A stretch of DNA of 64,000 bases from Pseudomonas alcaligenes (GTDB lineage Bacteria; Pseudomonadota; Gammaproteobacteria; Pseudomonadales; Pseudomonadaceae). Position 1 is the stretch's first letter. Every line of letters begins with the position of its first letter. The position numbers and the translations under genes are program-made. Shown one piece after another: positions 32,804 through 52,016 of the stretch. The stretch is from positions 1,697,501 through 1,761,500 of the forward strand of contig NZ_LZEU01000001.1 of assembly GCF_014490745.1 (NCBI RefSeq), given 5' to 3'. The notes beneath the pieces are model-generated. The model searched no databases. It had not been told where the DNA came from and saw only the letters and a program-made list of their open reading frames with translations.

Positions 32804-32984
32804 GCAATCAACCTGAATTTGAGCGGCGAGGAACCACACGACATCCGCTTATGTCGGTCGGGTCTGTGTGCGTGGAAAGGCTCTGCAATGTGCCATAGCC
32901 CCATAAAACGATGCAATTGAAGGTTTACTTGCGCGGCATTCGGTCTGGCGGCACAGTGCCATTTTTGAAGAGTCCGAGCTGACT
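32804..32984. promoter_or_regulatory. Divergent promoter region, wzz-like operon / methyltransferase
   Basis: 181 bp between divergent starts, locally AT-richer. It contains an inverted repeat CGACAT (32839-32844) / ATGTCG (32851-32856) with a 6-nt spacer that may be an operator. Individual promoter boxes were not assigned. Confidence 0.4.
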
Positions 32985-35038: not shown

Positions 35039-35149
35039 GGGCGGGAAATGTCTCGGGCTTGGGCGGCGCTGGCAGTGTGCCGATGGGGTTCGAGCTTGGC
35101 AATTGCAGGCGGTGCGGGTAGCGTGGCGGCACTTTTACGGGTGTAGTAA

Positions 35150-36421
35150 ATGATGTCATCGGATGAGTCGCCTAATGCCTTTGCTCGCCAGTTGGCGGCA
35201 TTGCGTCTGCGAGTTGGCGACGAAGCGCTGGACGTGCGGCACGAGGTGTTCTTTCTCGCGGTCCGCTACGGGCGCGGGGCGGGTCTGCGTGGTTGTGTGG
35301 CGCTGCTGCGGGACGCCTGGCTGCTCCTGCGCTGCCCGGCCCCCGGTCGCCAGCCGCTCGCCGATGGACTGATGCTGGTGGTCACCCTGGCCGGCCAAAG
35401 CGGCTGGGGTACTCTGGCGCGCAGCTTGCCCCTGTTGGCGCCTGGCAGCCCTGTAATCCTGGCGCATCCTCGCCTTGCTGCCTGCGACTTTGCGCAAGGT
35501 GTGCCGGTGCGGCGTCCGCTACGTCCTTCCCTTAAGGCTATCGGTAGTGCCGCATCCACCTTTTGTCGCGTGTTGCTCACTCAACGCTCCTTGCTGTTGG
35601 CCAGCTGTTTGGCGCGTCGTGCGTTGTGGCGTGCCAGCTTGGCCCGAACGCTTTCTGGTCGTTGCGGGCCACTGATCTTGCACAACGATTTCGACATGAT
35701 GAGCAATGCGGCTATCGGCCAGGCCGGGGCCACCGTATGTCTTCAGCATGGGGTGCCGACCGAGGAGTTCTTTCCGATTCGTGCGGACTGGTATGTGGTG
35801 TGGGGCGAGCGTAGTCGCCAGGCGTTTATCGATGCCGGCAGTGCGGTCCCCCGCCTGGTCGAGGACGCTCTGGGGCGTGCTCCTGCGCCGAGCGCTCCGG
35901 AAGCGGCTCCCGATGGGATTTCGCTGCTATCGCAGGCCCATGCCCCGATCCTCGGTAATGAGCTTGCCGGATGGCTTCACCAGTTTGCACTGAGGTTGTT
36001 GCAGGCTGAACCCGCGCTGCGCATCCTGCTGCACCCGCAGGAGCACACGGCTTACCCAGGGGCGGCAGCGCTTGCCTGCAGCAGGCCGCCTCATGCCGAG
36101 TTAGCTGCCGCGGCGACGCCTTGCCTGGTGCTGGGTTGCTGCAGCTCGGCGCTGTTCGATGCGGCTCTTGCAGGGCACTGGGTCGTGCGTCTGGCCGCGC
36201 CACTGGCCGGTAACCGGGCGGCCCTGCACTTGTTGGAGGGGCTCCCGTGCGCCGAGAGCGCGGAGCAGGTGTTGCGTCTGTACGAGCGCTTGCGCACTGA
36301 CGTGGCGTTCCGCCGAGAGACTGCGCTGGCGCAGCTGTCCTGGCTAAAAGAAAATTTCGCCGCCGAGACGGGGGCGTTGGCCCGGTTGTTGGCGCGTCTT
36401 GAAGATGAGGCGCATGCATGA
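35150..36421 (+). CDS. Glycosyltransferase-like protein of unknown type (GT-B-like)
   Basis: 423 aa, not confidently recognised. The central stretch 'LILHNDFDMMSNAAIGQ' followed by 'ATVCLQHGVPTEEFFP' and 'DWYVVWGERSRQAF' has the Q-H-G and W-G-E features found in several capsule and teichoic-acid-type GT-B enzymes; 'LRILLHPQEH' later also fits. There are no TM segments and no signal peptide. It is the first gene of a four-gene plus-strand run with 4-bp overlaps or short gaps (glycosyltransferase, ABC transporter, WecB-like), so a role in making or exporting a surface glycan is likely. Confidence 0.55.
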   Translation: MMSSDESPNAFARQLAALRLRVGDEALDVRHEVFFLAVRYGRGAGLRGCVALLRDAWLLLRCPAPGRQPLADGLMLVVTLAGQSGWGTLARSLPLLAPGSPVILAHPRLAACDFAQGVPVRRPLRPSLKAIGSAASTFCRVLLTQRSLLLASCLARRALWRASLARTLSGRCGPLILHNDFDMMSNAAIGQAGATVCLQHGVPTEEFFPIRADWYVVWGERSRQAFIDAGSAVPRLVEDALGRAPAPSAPEAAPDGISLLSQAHAPILGNELAGWLHQFALRLLQAEPALRILLHPQEHTAYPGAAALACSRPPHAELAAAATPCLVLGCCSSALFDAALAGHWVVRLAAPLAGNRAALHLLEGLPCAESAEQVLRLYERLRTDVAFRRETALAQLSWLKENFAAETGALARLLARLEDEAHA

Positions 36422-38172
36422 AGGTTCGTGTGCTCTTCGTGAGCAAAGAGTTCCAGCCGCTATACAGTGGTGTTGCCCGGCATATTCAGGGGTTGGCGCA
36501 AGCGCTGGTCGATGACCCCGTTGTGACATTGAGCATGCTCGCGCCGGAGGTAGGCGATGGACACGCGCCGCTCTCGGTGATGCGTGGGGGATATCGCAAG
36601 CTCTGGGCCTGCCTGCGCAGTTGCGATGTGGTGCACCTGCATGGCTCGCGTACGCCTCTGGTGTTCTGTACTGCGTTGCTGGCGCGCTTGCGCCGGCTGC
36701 CGGTGGTGTATACCCCGCATTGCTATTACGACGGTGGCTCGCTGCCGAAGCGTGTTCTGAAGCGCCTGTGGGACCTGACGGTAGAGCGTGTTCTGCTGCG
36801 CATTGCCGGCGCTCTGGTGCTGTTGCATGAGGGCTGGATCGATGACCTGGTGCGGCGTGGCCTGAAACCCCGGCGGGTGATGATTGTTCCCAACTGCATC
36901 GACGCGCAGCGTACGCGTACGTCTTCCACCGTGACGCGCCTGGAGGGGCGGCCTGCCGTGCTTTCGATCGGGCGCCTGGATCCGATCAAGCGTCTGGAGG
37001 ACATGCTGCAGGCATTGCTCGAGCCCTGCCTGTCAGACGCCGTGCTGCATGTCGTCGGGCGTGGCGAAGAGCGTGAGCGGCTGGGGTTGCTGGCCGAGCA
37101 GCTGGGTATCTCCCAGCGCGTGGTCTTTCACGGCTGGCAGGATGATGACGCCTCGACGGCCATGATGGCGGGGTGCGACACGATGATCCTGGCATCTGCC
37201 CGCGAGGGCATGCCGACCGTGGTTCTGGAGGCGTTGCTGGCCGGCGTGCCGATTGCCTGCTCCGATATCGAAGGTAATCGCGCGATTCTGGATACCGTGG
37301 GTTGGGATGGTCTTTTTGCCATGGGCGATGTGCCTGCTCTGGCCCGCTGTGTGCAGGCTGCCGCGCAGCGGCAGGTTTCGGATCAGGTGCGTGAGGCGGT
37401 GCGGAGTCGGTTCACCTGGGAGGGGCAAGCCCCACGGCTGGTCGAACGTTATCTCGAGCTGGCGAATCCGCCGCGGGTGGTGGGCTGGCATCGGCGGTTG
37501 ACGCGCAAGCTCGTCGATTACGACGACCCCGGCTCGTTGGGCTCGCGTATACGCAAGCGCCGTCTGGTGCGGCTGATGTCGATGATCGATCGGATCCATG
37601 CGCAGCACGGCCATGTGAAAATCATCGACGTTGGCGGAACGCATCGATACTGGCGGCTGCTTCCGGCAAGCTATCTGGAGTCTCGATCGGTCAGTGTCAC
37701 ACTGGTCAATCTGCAACCTGTAGCTATGCCCTCTGCCGATGGCTGTTTTACCTTTATGCAGGCCGATGGCTGCGACCTACAGGGCATCGGTACAGGCGCA
37801 TTTCATCTGGCCCACTCCAATTCCGTGATTGAGCATGTGGGCGACCGGGGGCGCATGGCGCGCTTTGCCAGTGAGCTGCAGCGTGTTGCTGAGCGCTACT
37901 ACATTCAGACCCCTGATTTCTGGTGCCCGCTGGAGCCTCACTGCATGACACCGATCTTTCACTGGTTGCCCCGGGCGTTGCGCATTCAGCTCGTGCGCCA
38001 TCTGGCTCTGGGGCATTGGCGCCGGGCGCGTAACCGGGCAGAAGCCGAGGCCATGGTGGATAGTGCGCGCCTGTTGGGTCGCCGCGAGCTGAAGGCGCTG
38101 CTGCCGGGGGCCACGATCCTGCATGAGCGGGTGCTGGGAATGCCCAAATCACTGATCGCGATCAATCCATGA
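36418..38172 (+). CDS. GT4 glycosyltransferase fused to a methyltransferase-like domain
   Basis: 584 aa. Residues 1-350 form a GT4 GT-B enzyme: 'SGVARHIQGLAQAL' near the start, 'VVYTPHCYYDGG', 'LSIGRLDPIKRLEDML', and the E-x7-E region 'REGMPTVVLEALLAG' with 'SDIEGN'. From about 395 on, a second domain begins with 'HVKIIDVGGTHRYWRLLP' (a SAM-binding motif I look-alike) and 'FHLAHSNSVIEHVGDRGRM', typical of class I methyltransferases. One polypeptide thus joins sugar transfer and probable methylation. It overlaps both neighbours by 4 bp. Confidence 0.78.
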   Translation: MKVRVLFVSKEFQPLYSGVARHIQGLAQALVDDPVVTLSMLAPEVGDGHAPLSVMRGGYRKLWACLRSCDVVHLHGSRTPLVFCTALLARLRRLPVVYTPHCYYDGGSLPKRVLKRLWDLTVERVLLRIAGALVLLHEGWIDDLVRRGLKPRRVMIVPNCIDAQRTRTSSTVTRLEGRPAVLSIGRLDPIKRLEDMLQALLEPCLSDAVLHVVGRGEERERLGLLAEQLGISQRVVFHGWQDDDASTAMMAGCDTMILASAREGMPTVVLEALLAGVPIACSDIEGNRAILDTVGWDGLFAMGDVPALARCVQAAAQRQVSDQVREAVRSRFTWEGQAPRLVERYLELANPPRVVGWHRRLTRKLVDYDDPGSLGSRIRKRRLVRLMSMIDRIHAQHGHVKIIDVGGTHRYWRLLPASYLESRSVSVTLVNLQPVAMPSADGCFTFMQADGCDLQGIGTGAFHLAHSNSVIEHVGDRGRMARFASELQRVAERYYIQTPDFWCPLEPHCMTPIFHWLPRALRIQLVRHLALGHWRRARNRAEAEAMVDSARLLGRRELKALLPGATILHERVLGMPKSLIAINP

Positions 38173-39899
38173 GTCGACAGTCGTTCATCGCGCCGTTGCG
38201 TGCGCTTGCATTGATCGAGCGCTGCGGCGTACCGAGGCGCAGCGTGATGCTCATGCTGTTGCTGGCGCTGGCGCGAGCAATTGTCGATGCCGTCTCTGCC
38301 ATGTTGTTCGCAGTGGTGCTGGCCATGTTGCTGGGTGTCGGTATGGGCGCGCCCGCCTGGTTAGGGGGGCTGTGGGTGCAGCTCCTGGCATTACCGGTCG
38401 AGGCGCTGCTGGCCTGGCTGATCGTGGTGCTGATGCTGTGCAAAGCCGTGCTGGCGCCTTTTCTGGGGCGCTTGCGGGGGCGGCTGATTGATCGCTGGTC
38501 GGTTGCCCTTGCCATGAGGGCACTGGCCGCCGAGCTCACGCCCGCCGCGAGCGGCGGACGCCAAACCCACGCCCAGGGGCGCAATATCACCGTCAACTTC
38601 ACGGTGTCGCGGGTGATCATGGGCGGCGTTTTTCCGAGCCTGGACCTGCTGACCGAGTTGCTGGTGGTGGCTGTGCTGCTGGCCTATCTGAGCTGGCATC
38701 TGCCGTTAATGGGGGCAGGCATGCTGCTGGGACTGGCGCTGGTGGGTGGTGCGGTCGGGCTGCTGCGCAGGCGGTTTGGGCGTCGCGACCTGAACTTTCA
38801 CCTGCGGCTCCAGGAACAGATGCATCGCTGGGTCACGGACAGCAGCCACTGTTTGCGCGAACTTCAGTTATACGGTCGGGTCTCGGCAGTACTCGAGCGC
38901 TACAGCCCCTTGGCACGTACCTTTGCCGAGAGCACCTCTCGTGAGCGTCTGCAGCAGGACGCACAGGCTCCGGTGGTCGAGTTGGGCGTGTTGCTGATGC
39001 TGGCTGGGGCCGTGTTCGTTCTGCACCAGTTGGCCCCGCAGACCGACCTGACGAGTGTGGCGCTGTGCACGGCCATCGGATTGCGCCTGCTCCCGGCGCT
39101 GCGGCGGGTATTCGCTGCCACCCAACTGGTGGCGCAGGTACAGGGCAGTATCTTCGAGCTGCATGCCCTACTGGATCGCGCCGACTGCCTGGCAGCGCAG
39201 CGCTCTGCACCCCGCGTGACGCCTATGCAGGCGCCGCGGCTGATGTTGTGTGAAACGCTGGGTTATCGTTACCCGGGCGCTTTGGAGGCGGTCTTGCGGG
39301 ATGTCAGCACGCATCTGGAGCGAGGCGAGTGGTTGGGCCTGGTCGGGATGTCGGGCGCTGGCAAGTCGACGCTGGTCGACCTGTTGATCGGGCAGCTTCA
39401 ACCCACCTCCGGGACTCTGGTCTGGGCCGGTTCGCCCGTCATCGGCTATGCCGGCGCCAGTAGCACGCTGTTGCCAGGCACCTTGCGTGACAATATCGGA
39501 CTATTTGGTCAGCATTACACCGATGTCGAGCTCGGTCAGGCTCTTGCGATTGCCGGGCTCGCAGGCTGGTTGGTGAAGCGGCCCCAGGGCCTGGATACCC
39601 CGGTTGGCGAGTTCGAGCAGCATCTCTCCGGTGGCGAGCGTCAGCGCCTGGGGTTGGCGCGGGCGTTCCTGCATGCGCAGGATCTGCTGATTCTCGATGA
39701 GGCAACGGCTGCGCTGGACGAGCTGATAGAGGGCGCTTTCCTGTCGGCTTTGAAGGTTGCCAAGCCACACCTGGCCGTATTGCTGATCACTCACAGGTTG
39801 AGTGCGTTGCGTCATGCCCATCGAGCGGTGCTGCTGGTCGATGGGCGGCTGGAAAGCTATTGCGGTCAGGCGCTGAGTTCAACTGAGACCGTGCAGTGA
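38169..39899 (+). CDS. ABC exporter half-transporter (TMD-NBD fusion)
   Basis: 576 aa. About six TM segments occur in residues 25-310, then the ATPase domain: Walker A 'GMSGAGKSTLVDLL', signature 'HLSGGERQRLGLARAF' and Walker B 'DLLILDEATAALD', H-loop 'LLITHRLS'. The MsbA/McjD-like architecture exports lipids, glycans or peptides as a homodimer. In lasso clusters the D protein has this form, so it may export the peptide predicted at 42342-42515, but glycan export is equally possible from its neighbours. It is coupled to the upstream glycosyltransferase by a 4-bp overlap. Confidence 0.85.
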   Translation: MSRQSFIAPLRALALIERCGVPRRSVMLMLLLALARAIVDAVSAMLFAVVLAMLLGVGMGAPAWLGGLWVQLLALPVEALLAWLIVVLMLCKAVLAPFLGRLRGRLIDRWSVALAMRALAAELTPAASGGRQTHAQGRNITVNFTVSRVIMGGVFPSLDLLTELLVVAVLLAYLSWHLPLMGAGMLLGLALVGGAVGLLRRRFGRRDLNFHLRLQEQMHRWVTDSSHCLRELQLYGRVSAVLERYSPLARTFAESTSRERLQQDAQAPVVELGVLLMLAGAVFVLHQLAPQTDLTSVALCTAIGLRLLPALRRVFAATQLVAQVQGSIFELHALLDRADCLAAQRSAPRVTPMQAPRLMLCETLGYRYPGALEAVLRDVSTHLERGEWLGLVGMSGAGKSTLVDLLIGQLQPTSGTLVWAGSPVIGYAGASSTLLPGTLRDNIGLFGQHYTDVELGQALAIAGLAGWLVKRPQGLDTPVGEFEQHLSGGERQRLGLARAFLHAQDLLILDEATAALDELIEGAFLSALKVAKPHLAVLLITHRLSALRHAHRAVLLVDGRLESYCGQALSSTETVQ

Positions 39900-39928
39900 C
39901 TGGTGCAGGCCTCATACCAAGGAAACGC

Positions 39929-41017
39929 ATGCATTTAGCGTTCGTACTGGGCACTCGTCCGGAAATCATCAAGCTCTATTCGCTGCTGGGCGCATGTGCT
40001 CGCCAGGGGATTCCCTACACGCTGATCCACACCAATCAGCACTACGACGCCGCGATGGATGGTCAGTTCTTTAGAGAATTCGGCTTGCCCTGCGCCCAGT
40101 ACAATCTAGGGGTCGGTTCTGGTTCTGCCGGCCAGCAGATCGGGCGCATGTTGCTGGGTATCGAGCCGGTGCTGCGTGATGTGAAGCCTGATTGCGTCAT
40201 CGTGCAGGGTGATACCAACAGCGCGCTTGCAGGTGGCCTGGCGGCCAGCAAGGCGGGCATCGAGGTCGCGCACGTCGAAGCCGGTCTGCGCAGTTTCGAC
40301 AAGGGCATGCCTGAAGAGAACAACCGGGTTTTGCTGGATCATCTGTCCAGCCTGTGGTTCTGCCCCTCTTCGCTGCAGGTCGAGCTGCTGGCCCGTGAAG
40401 GTATTCACGGGCCTGGAGTTCATGTCACGGGCAATACCGGTAACGATGCTGCGCTGCAGTATGCCCCTTCAGCTATCGAGCGTTCCTCCATCTATCGAGC
40501 ACTCGGGTTGCAGCAGGGGGGCTATCTGTTACTGACCTGCCATCGTCCCTCCAATACCGACGATCCAGCGCACTTCGCTCGATTGATGTATGCGGTGCAG
40601 GGTGTAGCGGAGACGCTGGGACGTCAGGTGATTTTTCCCCTGCATCCCCGGCTCAGCCGCCAGAACCGCGAGCTTGTGGACGAGATGGGACATCTCCGTG
40701 CCTTAGATCCCGTCGGTTATTTGGACATGCTGGCGCTCATGCAGGGCGCTGCGCTCGTGCTGACCGACAGCGGCGGCATGCAGGAGGAGGCCTGTGTGCT
40801 GCAGCGCCGCTGCCTGATCCTGCGGGCCAATACCGAACGCCCGGAGAGCCTGGATACCGGGGGGGCCTGTCTGGTGCCGGGAAACGAACGCGGCCGGATG
40901 ATCGCGGCTGCCCACGCCTTGCTCGGCGCCCAGGTGGCCTGGAGCAATCCCTTTGGCGATGGCCGCGCCTATCAGCGTATTCTGGATGTTCTGCGGTCGC
41001 GCTATGAGGGAGCTTGA
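39929..41017 (+). CDS. wecB: UDP-N-acetylglucosamine 2-epimerase (non-hydrolysing)
   Basis: 362 aa. It makes UDP-ManNAc from UDP-GlcNAc in the cytoplasm. Family motifs: N-terminal 'FVLGTRPEIIKL', 'VQGDTNSALAGGLAA', 'HVEAGLRSFDKGMPEENNR' and 'LTDSGGMQEEA'. ATG 39929 is preceded by AAGGA at ideal spacing and gives the normal N-terminus; the GTG at 39896 that overlaps the ABC gene's stop is less likely. Its 3' end overlaps the convergent Wzy-like gene by 16 bp. It probably supplies sugar for the GT26 enzyme at 24408. Confidence 0.9.
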   Translation: MHLAFVLGTRPEIIKLYSLLGACARQGIPYTLIHTNQHYDAAMDGQFFREFGLPCAQYNLGVGSGSAGQQIGRMLLGIEPVLRDVKPDCVIVQGDTNSALAGGLAASKAGIEVAHVEAGLRSFDKGMPEENNRVLLDHLSSLWFCPSSLQVELLAREGIHGPGVHVTGNTGNDAALQYAPSAIERSSIYRALGLQQGGYLLLTCHRPSNTDDPAHFARLMYAVQGVAETLGRQVIFPLHPRLSRQNRELVDEMGHLRALDPVGYLDMLALMQGAALVLTDSGGMQEEACVLQRRCLILRANTERPESLDTGGACLVPGNERGRMIAAAHALLGAQVAWSNPFGDGRAYQRILDVLRSRYEGA

Positions 41018-42234
41018 TCTGGGCTGCGCCGCAGAGCAATGAGAAAGGCAATCGGCAGCCACACAATCACCCAGTAAGGGCTGGGGCGATGGAACAGGGC
41101 ATAGATGTCCGAGACCATCGCCACCAGGGCGAAAACCAGCGCGGCCAGGCCGATGCGTGCCTCCTTCTGCCGGCGCAGTTGCCAGCCCTTGAGCACCAGT
41201 GTGCCCAGCAGTGCCACGAACAGGGCTGCGCCGATCACACCGTATTCGTACCAAAGCTGCAGGTACAGGCTGTGGGCGTGATGGACCGTGTCGCCCCAAG
41301 GGTAGGTGTACACCAACGGCTTGCCGGCCCCGTTGCCATACAGCCAGAACTCGGGCAGGCGAGCGAACCAGTTTTGCCAGATCGGGCCGCGTTGGCTGGT
41401 GCCCTGGCGAAGCTCGCTCTGCAGCTCGTTGTGAAAGATGAGCAGTATCGCCAGCAGTATCAGGATGCCCAGCCCCAGCAATTGTCGTGCGCGCGGCTTA
41501 GGCGACAGCAGGAGCAGCGCCAGGCCGCCGGCCAGCGTGGCGAACCAGGCGCCGCGCGAGAACGTCAGCAGGACATAGAGCAACAATCCGGCAAGGCCAG
41601 CGTGGGCGAGGATCAGTGCGGGCCAGCGCGGCTCGAACTCGACGATCAGCCCCAGCATCAGCAGCGCGAACAGACCGAAGTACAGACCGGCAATGATGGG
41701 GTGCGAGAGGTCGGCGAAACCACCCCAGCCGAGCTCCGACAGGCGCCCATAGGTTCTTAATGCACTGTATGAGAACGGCTTGTCGAGCACACCGAACTGA
41801 TAGAAGAGCGTCAGCCAGGCCGCCAGGGCGCTGACGATGACAGCTGCCAGCAACGGCCTTTTGACAAAGCCGGCGAGCAGGAGCCGATGGATGCTGAAGA
41901 CATACAGCAGGATGAACAGACCGATTTTCAGCCAGTAGTGAGCCGGCTTGTCGCTGTCGCTGCCCAGTGTGCCACGCAGTAAAACCCAGCCGAGCAGTGC
42001 CGCCAGGAGGCAGGCGCAAGGCTGTCGCCACAGCGCCCAGTCGATCTTTTCGCTGAGCAGAAGCAGTAGCGCCGGCAGAAACAGCAGCAGGTGAGTCTGG
42101 GTGGCGTAGCGACTGTCGTCGTTGTTGAAGAGCAGGCCGCTCAGTTGGGCGAAGAGTCCGATTGCCAGTAGCGTCGTTAGGGTGGTTGTACGCAATTTAT
42201 GCAATGGTCTTGCCTGTGAGCATTGTGGCCTCAT
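41002..42234 (-). CDS. O-antigen ligase/polymerase-like membrane protein, second copy
   Basis: 410 aa with about eleven hydrophobic segments. The superfamily signature is seen in 'FADLSHPIIAGLYFG', 'LLTFSRGAWFATLAGG' and the large periplasmic loop 'RLPEFWLYGNGAGKP' ... 'TVHHAHSLYLQLWYEYG', where His and Arg residues typical of WaaL lie. This looks more ligase-like than the copy at 25191. ATG 42234 is preferred; the frame stays open to 42309. It lies 107 bp after the predicted precursor gene on the same strand and may be cotranscribed. Confidence 0.78.
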   Translation of the reverse strand: MRPQCSQARPLHKLRTTTLTTLLAIGLFAQLSGLLFNNDDSRYATQTHLLLFLPALLLLLSEKIDWALWRQPCACLLAALLGWVLLRGTLGSDSDKPAHYWLKIGLFILLYVFSIHRLLLAGFVKRPLLAAVIVSALAAWLTLFYQFGVLDKPFSYSALRTYGRLSELGWGGFADLSHPIIAGLYFGLFALLMLGLIVEFEPRWPALILAHAGLAGLLLYVLLTFSRGAWFATLAGGLALLLLSPKPRARQLLGLGILILLAILLIFHNELQSELRQGTSQRGPIWQNWFARLPEFWLYGNGAGKPLVYTYPWGDTVHHAHSLYLQLWYEYGVIGAALFVALLGTLVLKGWQLRRQKEARIGLAALVFALVAMVSDIYALFHRPSPYWVIVWLPIAFLIALRRSPDQAPS

Positions 42235-42341
42235 GAGATGGGCGGAGCCCATCATCCCCGCCACGTCTATTAGACATGGCGGATTACTTGGCTGCCGAGA
42301 ACATGACATGGCTAACCATATCGGCCGGTCGGATATTCAGG

Positions 42342-42515
42342 TCAAGAACTCCCCGTGAAATCTGGGCCTGGGAAAACACTGAAATGTGTTGCCGAGGTAT
42401 CCAAACGCTCCAGTCGCGGGGGGTGGTACGGCGCACGTTGATGCTGCTCTACAGTCACCTCCGTCGCAAGGTGTTTGACGTTTTGCTGGTCAGCTTCACG
42501 GTTCTTCTGGTTCAT
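42342..42515 (-). CDS. Predicted lasso-type RiPP precursor peptide
   Basis: 57 codons that I found by reading the minus strand; it is too short for usual gene callers. The leader (residues 1-44) is hydrophilic and carries 'YHPPRLERLDTSATH' at 30-44, matching the Y-x-x-P-x-L-E-x-L-D-x-x-x-T recognition pattern of paeninodin-type lasso leaders, with Thr at -2. The predicted core is 'FSVFPGPDFTGSS' (45-57): Asp at core position 8 would close an 8-residue macrolactam with the Phe1 amine, leaving a 5-residue tail ending Ser-Ser. GGAGG stands 5 nt before the ATG. It lies 303 bp downstream of the B2 protease gene on the same strand. Phe as residue 1 is unusual but has aromatic precedents. The gene is strongly suggested, not proven. 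Confidence 0.72.
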   Translation of the reverse strand: MNQKNREADQQNVKHLATEVTVEQHQRAPYHPPRLERLDTSATHFSVFPGPDFTGSS

Positions 42516-42520
42516 CCTAT

Positions 42521-42525
42521 CCTCC
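42521..42525 (-). promoter_or_regulatory. Ribosome binding site of the predicted precursor gene
   Basis: GGAGG on the minus strand, 5 nt before ATG 42515 (GGAGGATAGG-ATG). It is the best Shine-Dalgarno site in this intergenic zone and fixes the start of the small gene. Confidence 0.65.
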
Positions 42526-42818
42526 GCTCGTTACAGAAAACACTGGCGTCTGCTGGGGGGTCTAAGCGTTCACGCGGCAAAAGCCAGAGGCCGGTCTTGG
42601 CATCATTCAAGTATGTCAGGCGGGCAACATGCTAATGCATTTCGATAAATGCGAAGATGCCGGTTCAGCAGCAGTACCACATATATCCTGCTCGGTAGTG
42701 CCGATATACTCAATGTCCGGCACGCGCTCCTGGCATTACAAGGACGCTGGTTAGCGTAGGCTCGCCCGGGGTGTGGCTGGGCTAAAGATTACCCTGTTGC
42801 CGATTAGGCAGGGAATAT
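42526..42818. other. Intergenic region between precursor gene and B2 protease gene
   Basis: About 300 bp, AT-richer than the neighbours, with no other open frame I can support. It contains GCATTT-CGAT-AAATGC (42637-42652), a perfect 6-bp hairpin, and a looser inverted repeat TATATC/GATATA further on. It probably holds a promoter and 5' leader for the minus-strand precursor gene. No terminator for the B2 gene is visible. Confidence 0.45.
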
Positions 42819-43298
42819 CTAGCGTGATTTTGGATTGTCCGACAATGGTCCTGCCATGAAACTCCCGACGACAGTGAAGCGCGCGCAGACCTTGCCTCCA
42901 GTCACATAAGTTTGTCCGGCACATACCCAGGCATGGGCCTCAAGGCGCCCGCTTTCATCGCGCGCCACGCCGAAATGCAGGGTGTGGGGGATGCGTTTGG
43001 CGCCAAGCAGGACTCGGGCGGTGATGGCCTGGGCGAAACAGTTGGCGTCCCAGGGGGTGTGTCGCGCTGCGCGTTGAATGATCTCACCAATGACCAGCGC
43101 TTGCGCCTGTTGCTGTGGCGTGACGTGCTGAGCGCCGGCAAGTTCGCTGCTGCGCCTGCCCAGTACCGGTGCGATATGGCGGAAAGGGATTGTGACAATC
43201 AGTGCGCGGCTGAAACCGAGCATTATCCACGCGAACAACAGGCGCCATTGTTCTGCAGCAGGGCGCCGGACAAAGCGGCCCAGAATGCCCGGCGGCAT
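42819..43298 (-). CDS. Lasso peptide biosynthesis B2-type protease (transglutaminase-like fold)
   Basis: 159 aa. Residues 79-125 have the family core: 'RHTPWDANCFAQAITARVLL' with the candidate catalytic Cys87, then 'IPHTLHFGVARDESGRL' and 'AHAWVCAG' with His122. The acidic third residue is not obvious. Such proteins cut the leader from the precursor when guided by the PqqD-like B1 partner. ATG 43298 comes 1 bp after the PqqD-like stop; ATG 43325 is possible but would overlap. A TM-like stretch near 20-40 may tether it to the membrane. Confidence 0.8.
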   Translation of the reverse strand: MPPGILGRFVRRPAAEQWRLLFAWIMLGFSRALIVTIPFRHIAPVLGRRSSELAGAQHVTPQQQAQALVIGEIIQRAARHTPWDANCFAQAITARVLLGAKRIPHTLHFGVARDESGRLEAHAWVCAGQTYVTGGKVCARFTVVGSFMAGPLSDNPKSR

Positions 43299-43299
43299 G

Positions 43300-43584
43300 T
43301 CAGTCGCAGAGCCTGGCGATGCCATGCTTCAGCATCTGGCGCGCGAAGTCGAGCAGGTCGGCTTGGCAGGTCTGTGCATCGACCTCGTACTCCTGTTCGA
43401 TCACTCTGGCCAGTTCGCCAAGGCTAGCGGGCTGTTGCAGGCTGTCCCAGATGCGGATGCCGATACCGCTGATGCCGAAATAGCTGCCACTGTCGATATG
43501 CATCATGACCAGGTCGCCGTCCATTTCACTGGCGACCAGATCAGACGTTCTTACTAGGCGAGTGTTCAGGTTGATGTCGGGCAT
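43300..43584 (-). CDS. PqqD-family peptide chaperone (RiPP recognition element, B1-like)
   Basis: 94 aa. The RRE pattern is plain: 'DLVMMHIDSGSYFGISGIG' then 'IRIWDSLQQPASLGELARVI' and a C-terminal helix 'DLLDFARQMLKHGIARL'. These proteins bind the leader and present the peptide to protease and cyclase. ATG 43584 gives the normal length; the frame stays open for 60 more codons upstream but that extension is unlike the family. It is divergent from the HprK-like kinase with a 178-bp promoter region between. Confidence 0.88.
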   Translation of the reverse strand: MPDINLNTRLVRTSDLVASEMDGDLVMMHIDSGSYFGISGIGIRIWDSLQQPASLGELARVIEQEYEVDAQTCQADLLDFARQMLKHGIARLCD

Positions 43585-43762
43585 ATGCGGCTTGTGGCTT
43601 CGATAGTGGAGGTCGGAGATTATCAGTCCGTACCCGGCTTTGCGATCTGGCTCTCTACCTGATAATGGTTCGCCTCGCTGCCGCGGACGCCCAAACCAGT
43701 TCATTGGGGCTGTGATGTCGTGCCATATTGGCACCTTAATTAGGGAATTCGATCGAGTCTTC
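43585..43762. promoter_or_regulatory. Divergent promoter region of the RiPP cluster with inverted repeat
   Basis: 178 bp separating the PqqD-like and HprK-like starts. The inverted repeat GTGCCA (43720-43725) / TGGCAC (43729-43734) with a 3-nt spacer lies 29 bp before the kinase ATG and is a plausible operator. It could coordinate both directions. Confidence 0.45.
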
Positions 43763-44674
43763 ATGTCGCTTCATTTTTACCAGGCATACGCCTTGACCAT
43801 TCACAGCGAGTTGGCTCTGCCCGAACTGCTGGGGACCGATCCATCGATGAGCCCTGCGATGTGCGATGTCTTGATCCGCTTCGGGCGAGCGGCCGCCCCG
43901 GTGGCGGAGGGGCCACTTGAGCAACTGAGCGCCTTCGCCTGGGCGCGTCCGGGATTGCTCAAACTGGATGTGCCCGGGATTGCCAGTTTTCTTGTGTGTG
44001 GCGGATGTGAAATCACAGTAGAGCCGGCGGTTGGCTCCGATGAGGCCTCCATTCGCGCGTTTCTGCTCGGCTCGGCGCTTGGGGCGCTGCTGATGCAGCG
44101 CGGGTTGTTGGTTATGCACGGCAACGCCATTCGCATTGGCGATCGCTGCATGCTGTGTGTCGGCCACTCGGGGGCGGGCAAGTCCACCCTGGCAGCGGCA
44201 TTCACCCAGCGTGGTTACGCGCTGCTGGCCGACGACGTGATTCCCATCGACGGCAAGGGCTGTGCACTTCCCGGCGTGCCGCGTGTCAAGTTATGGCCCG
44301 ACAGCGCAGCTCAGCTGGGGCTCGACGTCACGCGGCTGGATGCTATCCGCCCGGGGGTGAACAAGTTCACGCTGCCCGTACATCAGTCGATGACGGATCT
44401 TCCCCTGCCGGTTGGCTGGATCTATGTGCTGACGGCTGGCGAAACTCCCAGCCTGAGCGCGGTGCGAGGCATGCGGCGCTTCGAGCTTCTGCAAGGCTAC
44501 GGCTATCGTCCGCGCTTCGTGGCGGGGCTTGGACTGCAGAAGGAGCAACTGCTTTCCTGCAGTCGCCTGGCGAATCAGGCGCAGATGAGCGAGCTGGTGC
44601 GCAAGCGTGACCATTTCGATCTGAATGGCCTGGTCGATAGCTTGCTGGCAGATATGCAAGAGGCCTGCGTGTGA
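43763..44674 (+). CDS. HprK-like kinase, candidate peptide Ser kinase
   Basis: 303 aa. The HPr-kinase fold is marked by 'LLVMHGNAI' (116-123), P-loop 'GHSGAGKSTLAAAF' (Walker A at 134-141) and 'ALLADDVIPIDG' (153-164) with the tandem Asp. There is no HPr protein or PTS gene nearby, so sugar control is unlikely. Homologues in paeninodin-type lasso clusters phosphorylate the C-terminal Ser of the precursor, and the predicted precursor here ends in Ser-Ser. It is the first gene of a five-gene operon; its TGA overlaps the sulfotransferase GTG by 4 bp. Confidence 0.82.
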   Translation: MSLHFYQAYALTIHSELALPELLGTDPSMSPAMCDVLIRFGRAAAPVAEGPLEQLSAFAWARPGLLKLDVPGIASFLVCGGCEITVEPAVGSDEASIRAFLLGSALGALLMQRGLLVMHGNAIRIGDRCMLCVGHSGAGKSTLAAAFTQRGYALLADDVIPIDGKGCALPGVPRVKLWPDSAAQLGLDVTRLDAIRPGVNKFTLPVHQSMTDLPLPVGWIYVLTAGETPSLSAVRGMRRFELLQGYGYRPRFVAGLGLQKEQLLSCSRLANQAQMSELVRKRDHFDLNGLVDSLLADMQEACV

Positions 44675-45534
44675 GTCGAGGCATTTTCTGGCTTGCTTCA
44701 TACCCCAAATCGGGTAACACCTGGTTTCGCATCTTTATCGAGAATCTGCAGCGAGATGCTGCGTGCCCTGCGGATATCAACAGGCTCTCGATCAAAAATG
44801 CCGCCAACAAGTTTTGGCTGGATGAAACACTTGGCTTCTCGACTGCTGATCTGCGCGAAGACGAAGTCGAAGCGCTGCGTGCTCCGGCGTATGAGTGGTT
44901 TGCGTCGACACAGGAGGCTGCCGGTTACTTCAAGATTCATGATGCGTATCGGCCCGAGTTACTGGTAGCGCAGCGGCACTACATGCGCGGTGCACTTTAT
45001 CTGATACGCGATCCGCTCGATGTAGCGCTGTCGCTCGCCAACCATCATGGCTGTGACCTGGATTCGGCGGTTTCGATGATGATCGACACGCAACGCACGA
45101 CCAGCTCTGGAGGCTCGCGCTATCTGGCGCAGGCCAGGCAGTACCTGTCGTGCTGGTCCGGTCATGCCACCAGTTGGGTGGACGGGCTGCAGGTGGGGTG
45201 CCATGTGGTGCGCTACGAGGATCTAATCGCGACCCCTATGGAGACGTTCACGCGTGCCGCCCGTTATCTACAACTGCCCGACGAGCCGGAGCGGATCGCC
45301 AAGGCCATCAGTTTCAGCTCGTTTGCCGAATTGGTGCGGCAGGAGGAACATTCCGGTTTTCGCGAGCGCAACGCCCCTGGGGCGCGGTTCTTTCGCCGAG
45401 GCCGGAGCGGCCAGGGGCGGCAGTGCCTGAGTAGAACCCAGATCAATCGTATTGTTTCCGCACATGGCGCCGTCATGGAGCGCTTTGGCTACCTGAATCA
45501 TGATCGTGAGATAGGTAATGACACTGCTTGCTGA
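44671..45534 (+). CDS. Sulfotransferase (PAPS-dependent, P-loop)
   Basis: 287 aa, GTG start within the kinase stop (GTGA). It has the 5'-phosphosulfate loop 'LASYPKSGNTWFRIF' near residue 8-22, the 3'-phosphate-binding 'LIRDPLDVALSLANHHG' near 110-126, and a late R-x-G-x-x-G-like 'RFFRRGRSGQGRQ' segment. It should move sulfate from PAPS onto a hydroxyl. The target may be the RiPP product (its core has Ser and Thr) or a surface glycan. It overlaps the CobS-like gene by 17 bp. Confidence 0.85.
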   Translation: MSRGIFWLASYPKSGNTWFRIFIENLQRDAACPADINRLSIKNAANKFWLDETLGFSTADLREDEVEALRAPAYEWFASTQEAAGYFKIHDAYRPELLVAQRHYMRGALYLIRDPLDVALSLANHHGCDLDSAVSMMIDTQRTTSSGGSRYLAQARQYLSCWSGHATSWVDGLQVGCHVVRYEDLIATPMETFTRAARYLQLPDEPERIAKAISFSSFAELVRQEEHSGFRERNAPGARFFRRGRSGQGRQCLSRTQINRIVSAHGAVMERFGYLNHDREIGNDTAC

Positions 45535-46474
45535 TATCTCTTACCCCGATACCCACTGCGATAGCCTCGCCTCGTTTGGCTGCGAGATGCCGTGGCCGGT
45601 TCCTGCATTTTCCCGCCCCGGGCCGCATGTGCCTGACATCGACCCTGCTTTCCAGTTCGTTCCCGAAGTCTGTCGTGCGCTGCTCATGGGCTTTGCCCAC
45701 AATCGCCGCGTCTATGTGCATGGCCCGCATGGCAGCGGCAAGTCGGCGCATGTCGAGCAGGTGGCTGCTCGTCTGAACTGGCCGTGCCTGCGTGTCAATC
45801 TGGATGGACATATCAGCCGCGCCGATCTGCTCGGGCGCGACATGCTGGTGCTGCGGGAAGGACGGCAGGTCACCGAGTTCGTGCCGGGGCTGCTCGCCTG
45901 GGCTCTGGAGCGCCCGATGGTACTGGTGCTCGATGAGTATGATGCCGGTCGTCCCGAGGTCATGTTCGTGCTGCAGCAACTGCTGGAGAGCGACGGACGA
46001 CTGACGCTGCTGGAGCAGAATCGAGTGATCACCCCACATCCGGCCTTCCGGCTTTTCGCCACGGCCAACACCGCTGGTTCGGGTGATACCTCCGCTCTGT
46101 ACAGCGGTGTGCAGATGCTCAATCAGGCGCAGCTGGATCGCTGGAATGTGGTGGTCGAGCTGGGGTACCTGTCCAGAGAGCGCGAAGGCGATATCCTGCG
46201 TGCGCGGCTGGCTCACCTGGCTGTGGATGAGGTGCAGGCCATGCTCGATCTGGCGGGTTTCTGTCGACAGGCGCATACCCAGGGTGAGCTGTCGACACTG
46301 CTTTCCCTGCGCACGCTGATCGCCTGGGGCGAGAATCACGCCTTGCTCGGCGACATGGCTGCCGCGTTCTGCCTGGCATTCTTCAATCGCTGCGATGGAC
46401 ATGAGCGCGCTTTGCTCGCGGAGCTCTATCAGCGCTGTTTCGCCCAGGAGCTGCCGGTAGATGCTCAGCGCTGA
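45518..46474 (+). CDS. CobS-like AAA+ ATPase (MoxR/chelatase group)
   Basis: 318 aa. From residue 28 on it resembles the CobS subunit of aerobic cobaltochelatase closely: 'VPAFSRPGPHVPDID', 'GFAHNRRVYVHGPHGSGKS' (Walker A 69-76), 'QVAARLNWPCLRVNLDGHIS', 'VLVLDEYDAGRPEVMFV' (Walker B 136-140) and 'PHPAFRLFATANTAG'. CobS normally works with CobT and CobN to insert Co2+ into a corrin ring, but no CobN or cobalamin gene is near. Here it is embedded in a RiPP-like operon, so it may power remodelling of another client. It overlaps both neighbours. Confidence 0.85.
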   Translation: MTLLADISYPDTHCDSLASFGCEMPWPVPAFSRPGPHVPDIDPAFQFVPEVCRALLMGFAHNRRVYVHGPHGSGKSAHVEQVAARLNWPCLRVNLDGHISRADLLGRDMLVLREGRQVTEFVPGLLAWALERPMVLVLDEYDAGRPEVMFVLQQLLESDGRLTLLEQNRVITPHPAFRLFATANTAGSGDTSALYSGVQMLNQAQLDRWNVVVELGYLSREREGDILRARLAHLAVDEVQAMLDLAGFCRQAHTQGELSTLLSLRTLIAWGENHALLGDMAAAFCLAFFNRCDGHERALLAELYQRCFAQELPVDAQR

Positions 46475-48017
46475 TCATCTCTCGGCGTTTGCCGTCTGGC
46501 CCGCGGTATATGCGAATGGCCAGGGTGAGAGCCCGGGATTCGTGGCGTCGGAGCGTGCGCTCAGTGACAGGCAGGCGGCATGGCGGCGCTGGCATCGCCC
46601 GCAGGCGCTGCAGCGATTCAACGTTGTTGAGCGGCTTTGGTACGAGTCGCTGGAGTGGGCTCGCGTCGAAACCCTCGCCAGTCGGCACCTGCCGGGCATG
46701 CGCGTCAATCTGGTTGTGGATCCGGAGCTGCCGCCTGGAGTTACGGCGCGCGACCATTTATACCGCTGCGCGCGCTGGGTATTCAGCGATGCCGAGTGGC
46801 GCGATGAGCAGTGGAAGTTGCCTGCACCGCCCGCGGCTGGATGGTGGGCGCGTATTGCGCAGCGTCCAGGGCAGCGGTTGGAGCACCTGCAGGCTCTCCT
46901 GCCCGCGTTGTTGCCGGTTGCGCGCGCGAGTCTGGAGGATGCGCAGAGCTTTGCCGATAAAGTGGAGCCGCTGGTCAGGCTATATGTGCAGATCTACGCG
47001 GATACTGTTGGCCCCCATGTGCCCGGCCTTGCTCCAGTGGTCGCAACTGCTGCTGCGGCCCAGAGCCTCCGCGAGGCTCCCCAGCGGATTCAGGAGGAGG
47101 GTGGGGATGAAGGCTACAAAGTGTATTCCCATCGCTGGGATCGTGTTCTCACGCGCAGGGAGCTCGTTCAGCTGCCGGCAGAGCCTTCCATGCTGGCGCC
47201 TTCCATTGATGCGGAGGCGAGGCGGCTGGCTCAGCTCTTTCGGCGGCGTCTGCTGGCGCGGCAGCCTGCGGGTTGGCGCTTCGATCTGGAGGTCGGCGCT
47301 CTCGATTCCAGGCGGCTGGCTTCGCTAGTCAGCTCGAACAATCGCGCCGTGTTTCGCCAGGAGTCGAACCTTCCGGCTGCGCAGGCTTGTGTGACGCTGC
47401 TGCTGGATGTCTCGGGTTCGATGCGTGGGCGGCCCTGGCAGCTGGCGTCTCTGGCGGTGGACTTGGCGGTGCAGGCGCTGGAGGCGGCTGGCATTCGTTG
47501 CGAGGTGCTCGGTTACGGTACCGGCACTGATCAGGAAAATCCGCTGTTGCGGGCTTGGCAGGAAGTCGGGGCGCCGTTGTCTCCTGGGCGACTGAATGCC
47601 ATGCGTTACCTGATTTTCAAAGCGGCTAATCAACCCTGGCGTCTGTGCCGAGATTTGCTCGGGCGCCAGGGCATCGTCGGGGGTGAGAACATCGACGGCG
47701 AAGCGCTCCATTGGGCCGCATCGCGGCTTCTGCGCCAGCCGCAGGCGCGGCGCATCCTCCTGGTCTTGAGCGATGGGCAACCCCATGACGATGCCACGCG
47801 GCGGGCCAATGGTTCTGAGTATCTCGACCTGCACCTGCACAACACGATTGCCGAGATCGAGCGCGGATCCATCCATCTTGCGGCCTTCGGCGCCGGTCAG
47901 GGTGTGAGTCGTTTCTATCGCAACAGCAGGGTGCTTGGGGCGCCCGAAGAGATTTTTCGGTCGCTATTTGGCGCCCTCGACGAGTTGCTCGGTGGTCCGC
48001 GAGGTGGAAGTGTATGA
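46461..48017 (+). CDS. CobT-like VWA-domain protein
   Basis: 518 aa. The middle and C-terminal parts follow CobT: 'DEGYKVYSHRWDRVL', 'RRRLLARQPAGWRFDLEVG', the VWA MIDAS 'LLLDVSGSMRGRP' (about 314-326), 'SPGRLNAMRYLIFKAANQPW', 'GGENIDGEALHWAASRLL' and 'RRILLVLSDGQPHDD'. The acidic linker typical of true CobT is replaced by a shorter less acidic stretch. With the CobS-like ATPase it forms a chelatase-type AAA+/VWA pair that lacks the large CobN subunit. Start ATG 46461 overlaps the upstream gene by 14 bp, and its own end overlaps the cyclase by 4 bp. Confidence 0.85.
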   Translation: MLSADHLSAFAVWPAVYANGQGESPGFVASERALSDRQAAWRRWHRPQALQRFNVVERLWYESLEWARVETLASRHLPGMRVNLVVDPELPPGVTARDHLYRCARWVFSDAEWRDEQWKLPAPPAAGWWARIAQRPGQRLEHLQALLPALLPVARASLEDAQSFADKVEPLVRLYVQIYADTVGPHVPGLAPVVATAAAAQSLREAPQRIQEEGGDEGYKVYSHRWDRVLTRRELVQLPAEPSMLAPSIDAEARRLAQLFRRRLLARQPAGWRFDLEVGALDSRRLASLVSSNNRAVFRQESNLPAAQACVTLLLDVSGSMRGRPWQLASLAVDLAVQALEAAGIRCEVLGYGTGTDQENPLLRAWQEVGAPLSPGRLNAMRYLIFKAANQPWRLCRDLLGRQGIVGGENIDGEALHWAASRLLRQPQARRILLVLSDGQPHDDATRRANGSEYLDLHLHNTIAEIERGSIHLAAFGAGQGVSRFYRNSRVLGAPEEIFRSLFGALDELLGGPRGGSV

Positions 48018-49927
48018 GTGCGATAGCCGGGATCATTCGCTTGGATCGGCAGCCTGTAGAGCGCTCGGTCCTCGAGCGCATGTGTAATGTGCTGGCGCCC
48101 TATGGTCGAGACGCCCAAAGCATCTGGCAGGGCGGCGGCGCGGGGCTGCTGCGCACGCTGCTGCGAAGCACGCCGGAGGATGCGTTCGATCGCCAGCCCC
48201 TGGGTGACGATCACTGCATGCTGGTCTTTTCCGGGCGCCTGGATAACCGCGAGGAGCTTGCTGCCCGTCTCGAGCTACCTGTGTCGGAGGTGGCGGACAT
48301 GGCCGACGCCGAGCTGGTGCTGCTGGCCTGTCGACGCTGGGATACCCGCGCGCTCGAGTATCTGTTGGGTAGCTATGCGCTGGCCTGCTGGCAGCCGCGG
48401 TGTGGCCGGTTGTGGCTGGCGCGCGACCCGATGGGCGGGCGCCCGCTGTTCTGGCATCAGAAGTCGGGTTTTGTTGCCTTTGCCTCTCTGCCCAAGGCGT
48501 TGTTCTGTGTGCCCGGTATTGCCAGGGTGATTTGCCAGGACAGTCTGCTCGATCGCCTTGCCATGCTGCCCATGAGCGGCTCCGGTAGTTTCTTCAAGGA
48601 TGTCCAGCGTGTTGAGGCCGGGCAGGTGGTGTTGTTCGAGGAAGGGCGCTTGAGTTCGCGCTTCTTTCACCGTTTCGAACCCGAACGGGAGCTGCAGCTT
48701 GGTCGTGACGAGGACTATCTGGAGGCTTTTTCCGGGCATTTCGAGCGAGCCGTCGCAGCATGTCTGCGCAGCGCGGGTCCCGTTGCGACGCATCTCAGCT
48801 CGGGGTTCGATAGCTCGGCAGTGACCGCGCTGGCTGCCCGCCAACTGAAGCTTCGTGGACAGCGTCTCACTGCTTTCACCGCTGCTCCTCGCGAGGGCTT
48901 CGCGGGGCCGGCGCCGCGCGGCAGGCATGCTGATGAAAGCCAGGTGGCGGCCAAGATGGCAGGCCGTTTTGACAACATCGATCACGTGGTGATTCGTTCG
49001 CAGGGACGTTCTCCGCTCGAAGATCTCCAGGTGTGCATCGAGGAGATGGACCGTGCGCCGCAAAACCCCTGCAACCGCGTGTGGCTGCGTGCCATCGAGC
49101 TGGAGGCGCAGGCGCGTGGCTGCCGAGTCATGCTCACTGGCGAGCGCGGCAACATGTCCATTTCCTATGACGGTCTACCGTACCTGGGGACGCTGTTCCG
49201 CTCTGGCCGGCTGCCTAGCTGGTGGAAGGAGATCAAGGCCTGTCAGGTGCGGCGCAAGCGTAGTCTGATCGCGCATTCGATCGCTGCGGCGTTACCGGCA
49301 TTCGCTTGGCGGCTGATAGCCAATCGGGCGGACCTAACTGGGCACCTCGCCGAGTACTCGGCGGTTGATCCTCGTCACTTGGCTTATCTGCACGGGCGCT
49401 CGCGTGAGGTGGCCTGGGACATGGACTACCAGCCGTGGCATGACAGTCGCGCCATGCGTATCGCGGTGCTGAAGCGGCAGGATACCGCCCAGCAAGCCAT
49501 GGCTGCCTGTCTGCGTGGAGTCGACATGCGCGACCCGACCGGGGATTTGCGTCTGGTCGAGTTCTGTCTGTCCGTGCCGGACCGCCAGTTTCTGCGTAAC
49601 GGCAAGCCACGCTGGTTGTTGCAGCGCATGATGGCAGGCGTTCTGCCTGCCGAGATCATGGAGGCACGGACCAAAGGCTACCAGGCGAGCGACTGGTTCG
49701 AGGGGCTTTCTGCAGATCGCGAGCGGCTGCGCGAGTCGCTGGCGCAGCTCAAGGCGCATCGCCGGGTAGGGGAGCTGCTCGATCTTGCGGGGCTTGAGGC
49801 GCTGATGGATGAGTGGCCCGAAGAGGGGTGGGACTCGAAAAGTGTTGTGCGCAACTATCGATTGAAGTTGCTCAGGGGCATGGCGGTCGGCGCCTTCGTG
49901 CGCTATGTCGAGCCGGACAATCGCTGA
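48014..49927 (+). CDS. Asparagine-synthetase homologue without Cys2, lasso cyclase-like
   Basis: 637 aa. It begins MSAIAGIIRL, so the Cys2 nucleophile of glutaminase domains is missing and this domain cannot release ammonia from glutamine. The degenerate N-terminal domain still shows 'MLVFSGRLDNREEL' and 'ARDPMGGRPLFW'. The ATP-PPi motif 'HLSSGFDSSAVTAL' (S263, G264, D266, S267) is intact, so it can adenylate a carboxylate. Those are the properties of lasso cyclases (McjC-like), which activate a core Asp/Glu for attack by the N-terminal amine. It is the last gene of the operon and is followed by a terminator. Confidence 0.82.
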   Translation: MSAIAGIIRLDRQPVERSVLERMCNVLAPYGRDAQSIWQGGGAGLLRTLLRSTPEDAFDRQPLGDDHCMLVFSGRLDNREELAARLELPVSEVADMADAELVLLACRRWDTRALEYLLGSYALACWQPRCGRLWLARDPMGGRPLFWHQKSGFVAFASLPKALFCVPGIARVICQDSLLDRLAMLPMSGSGSFFKDVQRVEAGQVVLFEEGRLSSRFFHRFEPERELQLGRDEDYLEAFSGHFERAVAACLRSAGPVATHLSSGFDSSAVTALAARQLKLRGQRLTAFTAAPREGFAGPAPRGRHADESQVAAKMAGRFDNIDHVVIRSQGRSPLEDLQVCIEEMDRAPQNPCNRVWLRAIELEAQARGCRVMLTGERGNMSISYDGLPYLGTLFRSGRLPSWWKEIKACQVRRKRSLIAHSIAAALPAFAWRLIANRADLTGHLAEYSAVDPRHLAYLHGRSREVAWDMDYQPWHDSRAMRIAVLKRQDTAQQAMAACLRGVDMRDPTGDLRLVEFCLSVPDRQFLRNGKPRWLLQRMMAGVLPAEIMEARTKGYQASDWFEGLSADRERLRESLAQLKAHRRVGELLDLAGLEALMDEWPEEGWDSKSVVRNYRLKLLRGMAVGAFVRYVEPDNR

Positions 49928-49984
49928 CCCGCTGCCTGGGTGGAGGCCGCTGGCGCTGAACTAGGGCAATACACCGATCCACAA

Positions 49985-50010
49985 AAAAAGCCGCCTTGCG
50001 GCGGCTTTTT
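49985..50010. terminator. Bidirectional terminator between the RiPP operon and etfQO
   Basis: AAAAAGCCGCC (49985-49995) and GGCGGCTTTTT (50000-50010) pair around a 4-nt loop with A/T flanks on both sides, so it can serve both converging operons. Confidence 0.9.
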
Positions 50011-50024
50011 CGGTGCGGCTCGAA

Positions 50025-51689: not shown

Positions 51690-52016
51690 AGAGAATCTCC
51701 TGCTCAAGGCTTCTTCGGTGTTGTTGATCTGGCTATAGGGCTAGGCTTTCTCTGGCCTGCGCGCTGGGCATTATATATATAGCCCCTTGCACGTCCAATA
51801 CAAACGTTTGTTTGAATTTTGTCAAAGCCATGTAGGGCAAGGCTTGGCGCCGGATGGATGGGTGGTTTTTCGTGTTGACCGAAAAGGGCGTTCCGGTCAA
51901 GATACGGGCGGTTTTGCGTTCGCCGTATGGGCTGACCGTCGGTTCCGGCCGACTTGCATCACCGGCCAGGCTTGCCTTGGCGACATTCTTATTCACCGGA
52001 GAGTAACGAGGAATCC
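51690..52016. other. Divergent promoter region between etfQO and etfB
   Basis: 327 bp without a gene, containing the PsrA-like site listed separately. The AT-rich stretch TATATATA lies at 51772-51779. The region should carry promoters for both directions, allowing joint control of the ETF genes. Confidence 0.55.
51801..51814. promoter_or_regulatory. PsrA-type operator (candidate)
   Basis: CAAAC-GTTT-GTTTG matches the published PsrA pattern (G/C)AAAC-N2-4-GTTT(G/C). PsrA is the TetR-family fatty-acid-responsive repressor of Pseudomonas beta-oxidation genes. The site is in the etfQO/etfB divergent region, as expected for genes that serve acyl-CoA dehydrogenases. Binding is inferred. Confidence 0.65.

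Follow-up and report, generated by a model that had tools for sequence, protein, structure and literature searches.

The predicted precursor of a 13-residue lasso peptide in Pseudomonas and the CobS/CobT genes linked to its cyclase

Does a 57-codon open reading frame on the minus strand of a Pseudomonas alcaligenes contig encode the precursor of a lasso peptide and, if so, what might its neighbours contribute to the product? We addressed this in the window, i.e. the whole 64,000-nucleotide stretch of DNA that was analysed, and in related loci and 398 genomes of the genus.

The precursor gene and the enzymes around it

The reading frame and the genes on its upstream side are laid out as follows.

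42342–42515, minus strand: precursor gene A, 57 aa with ATG start (from the ORF, its motifs and homologues)
42345–42383, minus strand: predicted 13-residue core, FSVFPGPDFTGSS, with a predicted Phe1–Asp8 ring
42399–42428, minus strand: leader motif YHPPRLERLD (YxxPxL type), residues 30–39, predicted B1-binding element
42521–42525, minus strand: GGAGG ribosome-binding site, 5 nt upstream of the ATG
42819–43298, minus strand: B2 leader peptidase, transglutaminase-like (NF033537, 88.4 bits, cut-off 33; inferred start)
43300–43584, minus strand: B1, a PqqD-type RRE (PF05402, 58.6 bits, cut-off 23.4; inferred start)
43763–44674, plus strand: HPr-type kinase K, with H, GxxGxGKS and DD present (inferred start)
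44671–45534, plus strand: sulfotransferase (PF00685), motif YPKSGNTW
45518–46474, plus strand: CobS-type AAA+ ATPase, Walker A intact
46461–48017, plus strand: CobT-type VWA protein, DVSGS (MIDAS-type) intact
48014–49927, plus strand: lasso cyclase C, asparagine synthetase-like, motif LSSGFDSS, its start overlapping the CobT stop by 4 nt

Translation of the minus-strand ORF 42342–42515 gave MNQKNREADQQNVKHLATEVTVEQHQRAPYHPPRLERLDTSATHFSVFPGPDFTGSS, in which F45, taken as core residue 1, places Thr43 at −2 and Asp52 at core position 8. The first-pass annotation had proposed a lasso precursor here, citing the 57-codon ATG frame with GGAGG 5 nt upstream, the YHPPRLERLD motif, Thr(−2), Asp8 and the PqqD-like and B2-type genes upstream on the same strand. 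Each of these features was confirmed, the motif at residues 30–39, Thr and Asp at residues 43 and 52, and the two genes over the cut-offs of PF05402 and NF033537; the precursor assignment itself draws support from the cluster genes, from small ORFs found repeatedly beside related cyclases and from 50 homologues. The window peptide combines a YxxPxL leader and Thr(−2) with Asp/Glu within core positions 7–9, as expected of a lasso precursor. Likewise, both marks of the lasso kinase type are present, i.e. a C-terminal Ser on the core, the predicted kinase target, and the kinase motif H, GxxGxGKS, DD (taken from an excerpt of PMC10368454).

The Cys (PW..C) and His (AHAW) of B2 are kept in 13/13 aligned B2 proteins, and the best solved relative of B1 is TbiB1 (5v1u, E 4.6e-13). 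The kinase matched PF07475 at 32.0 bits (E 1.1e-7), below the Pfam cut-off of 33.3, and the solved chains nearest to the sulfotransferase are Teg12, Teg14 and StaL. The cyclase scored 127.6 bits against PF00733 (cut-off 21), and its best NCBIfam match was the lasso cyclase model NF033535, at 304.7 bits below the cut-off of 525. Kinase, sulfotransferase, CobS, CobT and cyclase form an overlapping gene set divergent from A, B2 and B1. To the right of the cyclase, the gene at 50025–51707 matched FAD oxidoreductase models below their cut-offs; we call it ETF-QO, our own label, because an ETF gene (PF01012) comes next. B1, B2, kinase, sulfotransferase and cyclase are known lasso-cluster parts; HPr kinase, sulfotransferase and nucleotidyltransferase genes have been published from such clusters (excerpts of PMC8498205, PMC4289311, PMC9266682 and PMC10368454). 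On one MAG contig (L028:4144–6070), the cyclase reading frame is broken into two frames.

A related Pseudomonas region (genome G377, L036) is collinear with window positions 39903–42161 and 49984–57228 at 82–85% identity. These flanks are 144 bp apart in G377, whereas in the window they enclose a 7.8-kb stretch with A, B2, B1, K, the sulfotransferase, CobS, CobT and C; the lasso genes, precursor included, thus differ between the two genomes as one unit. A promoter and terminator scan of 42200–43850 returned nothing, nor did Rfam on 41900–50100.

A family of short precursors

No Pfam or NCBIfam model matched the window 57-mer, and a single-sequence homologue search with it found nothing. A loose precursor pattern matched 47 window segments, one of them the window precursor, and with that many matches it was given no evidential weight. 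A leader-only pattern, which required neither D8 nor a C-terminal Ser, was run over the window and 22 loci and returned 17 rows, every one beside a lasso cyclase; as L011/L019, L012/L020 and L013/L021 are identical DNA, these amount to nine distinct peptides. All nine carry D at core position 8 and a terminal Ser, and the Y and P of the leader motif are invariant in the 9/9 aligned Pseudomonas precursors.

A profile search with this nine-member alignment, in which eight members lack the final Ser on account of coordinates drawn too short, recovered 50 proteins at E ≤ 0.01 among 130 candidates, a set that includes several already-known relatives and comes without genomic context. Terminal Ser is present in 50/50. 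P0172 is truncated, leaving 49 full-length relatives, of which all have Thr(−2), 48 have D and one has E at core position 8, and 33 have a core of 13 residues (14 residues in 6, 15 in 8 and 16 in 2). We also built a hold-out profile from which the window peptide was excluded and whose members, its relatives, had been picked by leader motif and in some cases by Asp/Glu spacing as well; with this profile, the window peptide ranked first of 1188 six-frame segments of the window (E 1.8e-9; next, 0.43). All source-named relatives among the 50 except P0126 are labelled hypothetical or uncharacterized, which means that these records do not recognise the family.

Lasso cores are described as 13–33 residues long with rings of 7, 8 or 9 (excerpt of PMC13352647) or as ranging from 14 to 24 (excerpt of PMC6856326), and the window core falls at the small end of the known sizes. 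Its Phe1 had been read as a hint of distinct ring chemistry. Residue 1 varies among the 49 relatives (A 24, G 10, N 5, F 4, I 3, S 3) while D/E8 is constant, so Phe1 calls for no new chemistry; Ala, Ser, Cys and a wider flexibility at this position are already reported in the available part of PMC6856326. The label "paeninodin-type" holds for the kinase gene and the C-terminal Ser and fails at the family model: NF033524 (paeninodin family) did not match the window peptide. This model matched 3/9 members of the Pseudomonas alignment (best E 3.5e-4) and, among the full sequences of ten relatives, one at E 0.09, below its cut-off; a relative in L024 passes NF033521 (19.6 bits, cut-off 19). Finally, the suggested comparison of synonymous and nonsynonymous changes gave no evidence of purifying selection: of the 62 codons of the two L020 paralogues, 13 carry nonsynonymous and 4 carry synonymous differences.

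With one cyclase as query, a search of genome contigs returned nothing; a cyclase alignment as query found 14 loci. We define a close clade by cyclases at least 47% identical to the window's (window, L019–L028 and L031; n = 12) and excluded L032 (34% over 140 residues) from the counts. Four of these 12 loci yielded no precursor (L022, L023, L025 and L028), and two of the four lie on truncated contigs: that of L022 starts at the cyclase and that of L023 ends 0.3 kb past it. Wider searches, some of which demanded D/E spacing or a terminal Ser, gave further precursor peptides in L014–L018, L024, L026, L027 and L029–L031; in L014–L017 the ring can be read as 8 or 9 residues, and in L027 two loose-pattern matches are unlike precursors.

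Several loci have features of their own. The more distant, kinase-linked precursors of L029 and L030 have Ala, not Thr, at −2, and that of L018, likewise distant and kinase-linked, appears to as well. In genome G013, a single cluster (L021/L013) combines four different precursors with two cyclases, 57% and 56% identical to the window's; these might serve as a natural pair for probing cyclase specificity. In Litchfieldella anticariensis (L027:11980–13854) there are four similar precursors with 24-residue cores, and a second, distant cyclase-like gene (25%) lies at L027 17883–19628.

CobS/CobT and the surface-glycan locus as companions

Within the close clade, CobT was found in 11/12 loci and CobS in 10/12. 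L022, whose contig starts at the cyclase, has neither in the following 10 kb, and L024 (4.1 kb) contains just the CobT end. In nine of the 11 loci with CobT, this gene immediately precedes the cyclase and shares its strand; in L026 and L031 the CobS/CobT pair follows the cyclase on the opposite strand. These loci come from Pseudomonas, Pigmentiphaga, Litchfieldella, Thiocapsa, Desulfobacter and several MAGs, one of which is labelled Akkermansia and may be misbinned. The seven more distant cyclase loci (31–39%; L014–L018, L029, L030) showed no CobS/CobT in the available DNA, some contigs being short, which argues that lassos can in general form without the pair.

Across the genus, CobT occurred at E ≤ 1e-20 in 17/398 genomes and, as the full-length type, at E ≤ 1e-100 only in G000, G013, G054 and G377, exactly those with a cyclase at least 56% identical to the window's. 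In the other 13, mostly the C-terminal part of CobT matched (37–41%), with CobS adjacent, and no cyclase, kinase, B1 or B2 was found in the 6.3–8.5 kb around each. A tree of 22 CobS sequences, omitting that of L054 (in two pieces) and including three long lasso rows, separated 10 lasso-linked CobS from 12 other CobS of the genus by a branch with 100/100 support, L026 and L028 lying nearest to the non-lasso group.

The window CobS matched 9ujv at E 1e-108; the cobaltochelatase equivalogs were not reached (TIGR01650, 384 of 558.55 bits; TIGR01651, 220 of 759.05 bits), and no CobN adjoins the window pair. G000 holds a single CobT_C in the whole genome and a CobN at G000:C1:2545720, ~0.8 Mb off, with a ChlI-type ATPase adjacent. 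The CobS tree and this remote CobN, paired with a ChlI-type ATPase, make a cobalamin chelatase role for CobS/CobT unlikely.

On its other side, the precursor gene adjoins a second set of genes.

24408–42309, strand not assigned: surface-glycan locus, co-occurring with the lasso cluster
33941–35038, minus strand: PF14907 nucleotidyltransferase, candidate tailoring gene (inferred)
38169–39899, plus strand: ABC transporter encoded in the glycan operon, a candidate for lasso export

Using window 25191–26516 as marker, we found the glycan locus in 10/398 genomes and a cyclase at E ≤ 1e-60 in 8/398, all eight within the ten (hypergeometric 3e-15, a figure that ignores kinship). The lasso clusters of glycan-locus genomes have cyclases of two groups ~32% identical and lie at either end of the locus or, in G377, elsewhere. 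G051 and G334 have the glycan locus and no cyclase at E ≤ 1e-60 genome-wide; the 20 kb inspected in each, covering one end of the locus, contained no lasso genes. The PF14907 gene is part of the glycan locus and is separated from gene A by 7.3 kb; we take PsmN of the pseudomycoidin cluster to be a PF14907 protein. The G377 glycan locus is without the window's PF14907 and ABC segments, and the lasso cluster of this genome, on another contig, has its own ABC gene together with a nucleotidyltransferase of weak similarity (E 1.2e-7). In both G054 and G377, a lasso-type ABC gene lies in the lasso cluster and the glycan ABC gene is missing from its locus; G000, G013, G061, G139 and G306 have the glycan ABC gene, with no lasso-type ABC seen in the DNA examined; and G154 showed neither in the fetched DNA. 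As to a lasso-type exporter elsewhere in the genome, a candidate we set aside, 13 matches at E ≤ 1e-20 included none above 38% identity. The glycan locus also holds, at 27456–29429 on the minus strand, a second asparagine synthase-like gene (TIGR01536, 353.7 bits), found in related glycan loci as well.

A possible biosynthetic route and its known relatives

Lasso folding is usually credited to the cyclase and the B protein. A cyclase clade that travels with an ATP-driven AAA+/VWA pair offers a directly testable case of assisted folding, and precursors at the lower lasso size limit make the idea of a tail phosphate as stopper testable. We are fairly confident in predicting gene A to be the precursor of a 13-residue lasso peptide with a Phe1–Asp8 ring and a five-residue tail, likely phosphorylated on the C-terminal Ser and likely assembled with the assistance of CobS/CobT; the product is perhaps sulfated as well. 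The calculated [M+H]+ is 1326.600 for the dehydrated 13-mer as ring or lasso, 1406.566 for its phosphorylated, 1406.557 for its sulfated and 1486.523 for its doubly modified form, phosphate and sulfate being 9.5 mDa apart.

In the proposed route, B1 would bind the YxxPxL leader and the kinase would phosphorylate the last Ser while the precursor is linear; in paeninodin, the kinase is reported to act on the last Ser and not to work once the peptide is threaded (excerpt of PMC8498205). B2 would then cleave after His(−1), and the cyclase would adenylate Asp8 and shut the ring around the tail. As the tail, FTGSS, has no bulky residue beyond Phe9, the stopper must be Phe9 or the modified Ser, and a charged group on the latter may keep the thread in place; in the window peptide, the phosphate may be this stopper. 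The sulfotransferase may sulfate Ser or Thr. Going by gene linkage, CobS/CobT probably remodel the cyclase or the peptide–enzyme complex, as MoxR/VWA pairs do other enzymes, and export probably proceeds through the ABC transporter of the adjoining glycan locus.

Several other explanations compete with this route. That the ORF is a chance open frame is very improbable: it has no family model match and its single-sequence search was empty, yet its peptide ranked first against the hold-out profile, it has 50 homologues with fixed motif residues, and it lies behind a ribosome-binding site within the 7.8-kb unit. A macrolactam ring whose short tail is not threaded, i.e. a branched cyclic peptide and no lasso, we regard as an unlikely product. 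It would fit a five-residue tail without a bulky plug past Phe9 and a length at the bottom of the known core range (13–33 aa, PMC13352647, in excerpt), but the B1/B2/cyclase set is the same as in lasso clusters and a charged last Ser could serve as the plug.

It is possible, if doubtful, that we are dealing with an ordinary kinase-type lasso cluster in which CobS/CobT are passengers for another task, e.g. cobalamin synthesis. CobS is a good member of its family (9ujv), G000 has CobN and no second CobT_C, and lasso clusters without nearby CobS/CobT exist. However, the pair is linked to the cyclase in 11/12 loci from Pseudomonas to Desulfobacter, and the tree sets the 12 non-lasso CobS of the genus apart. 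Nor was any cyclase, kinase, B1 or B2 found in the 6.3–8.5 kb fetched at each of the 13 remaining CobT loci, and the G000 CobN has a ChlI-type ATPase at its side. Rather more doubtful is a glycan-linked lasso, in which the PF14907 nucleotidyltransferase and the glycan locus would add sugar to the Ser-phosphate and carry the conjugate out of the cell. For it speak the 8/8 cyclase genomes (E ≤ 1e-60) carrying a locus present in 10/398, and G377, where the glycan locus lacks PF14907 and ABC genes and the remote lasso cluster has an ABC gene and the weakly similar nucleotidyltransferase; against it, G051 and G334 have the locus and both genes, yet no cyclase at that threshold, and G154 has the cluster with neither gene in the fetched DNA.

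Beyond the predicted CobS/CobT-assisted lasso, we tentatively propose a wider scheme: a CobS/CobT machine, which a single cyclase clade would have acquired long ago, might drive the threading or remodelling of minimal 13-residue lassos with a Ser-phosphate stopper, perhaps sulfated or sugar-capped, the Pseudomonas product working with the surface glycan. Searches of open-licence literature found no report of CobS/CobT paired with lasso peptide clusters, of a Pseudomonas 13-residue precursor family or, in a narrow search, of glycan-locus co-occurrence with lasso clusters. One paper that mentions both lasso peptides and VWA proteins deals with methyltransferases and with an FHA-VWA cluster distinct from them.

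As described in excerpts of the papers cited, several known systems resemble the window. Paeninodin and the proteobacterial kinase-type lassos (SyanK, ThcoK; PMC8498205) share with it an HPr-type kinase gene and a C-terminal precursor Ser, and paeninodin B1 binds its leader, to which we liken the window B1 (PMC8498205); in contrast to them, the window has a 13-residue core, CobS/CobT in the operon and no NF033524 match. A sulfotransferase gene is known from some other lasso clusters. Pseudomycoidin (PsmK/PsmN; PMC9266682) has the kinase in common and a nucleotidyltransferase presumably of similar kind, whereas that of the window, a candidate tailoring enzyme, is encoded in the glycan locus at a distance from the precursor gene. 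The Bradymonas bsf cluster (BsfK, BsfN; PMC10368454) matches the window in Asp8 ring, kinase, YxxPxL leader and nucleotidyltransferase gene, but the target of BsfK is Ser3 (PMC10368454) and position −2 of its precursor is Ile, where the window peptide has Val at core position 3 and Thr(−2). Finally, the CobS/CobT cobaltochelatase and MoxR/VWA pairs such as NorQ/NorD (PMC9976466) likewise combine an AAA+ with a VWA protein, with Walker A and MIDAS-type motif intact; unlike these, the window pair has no CobN nearby, and its operon partner is a lasso cyclase.
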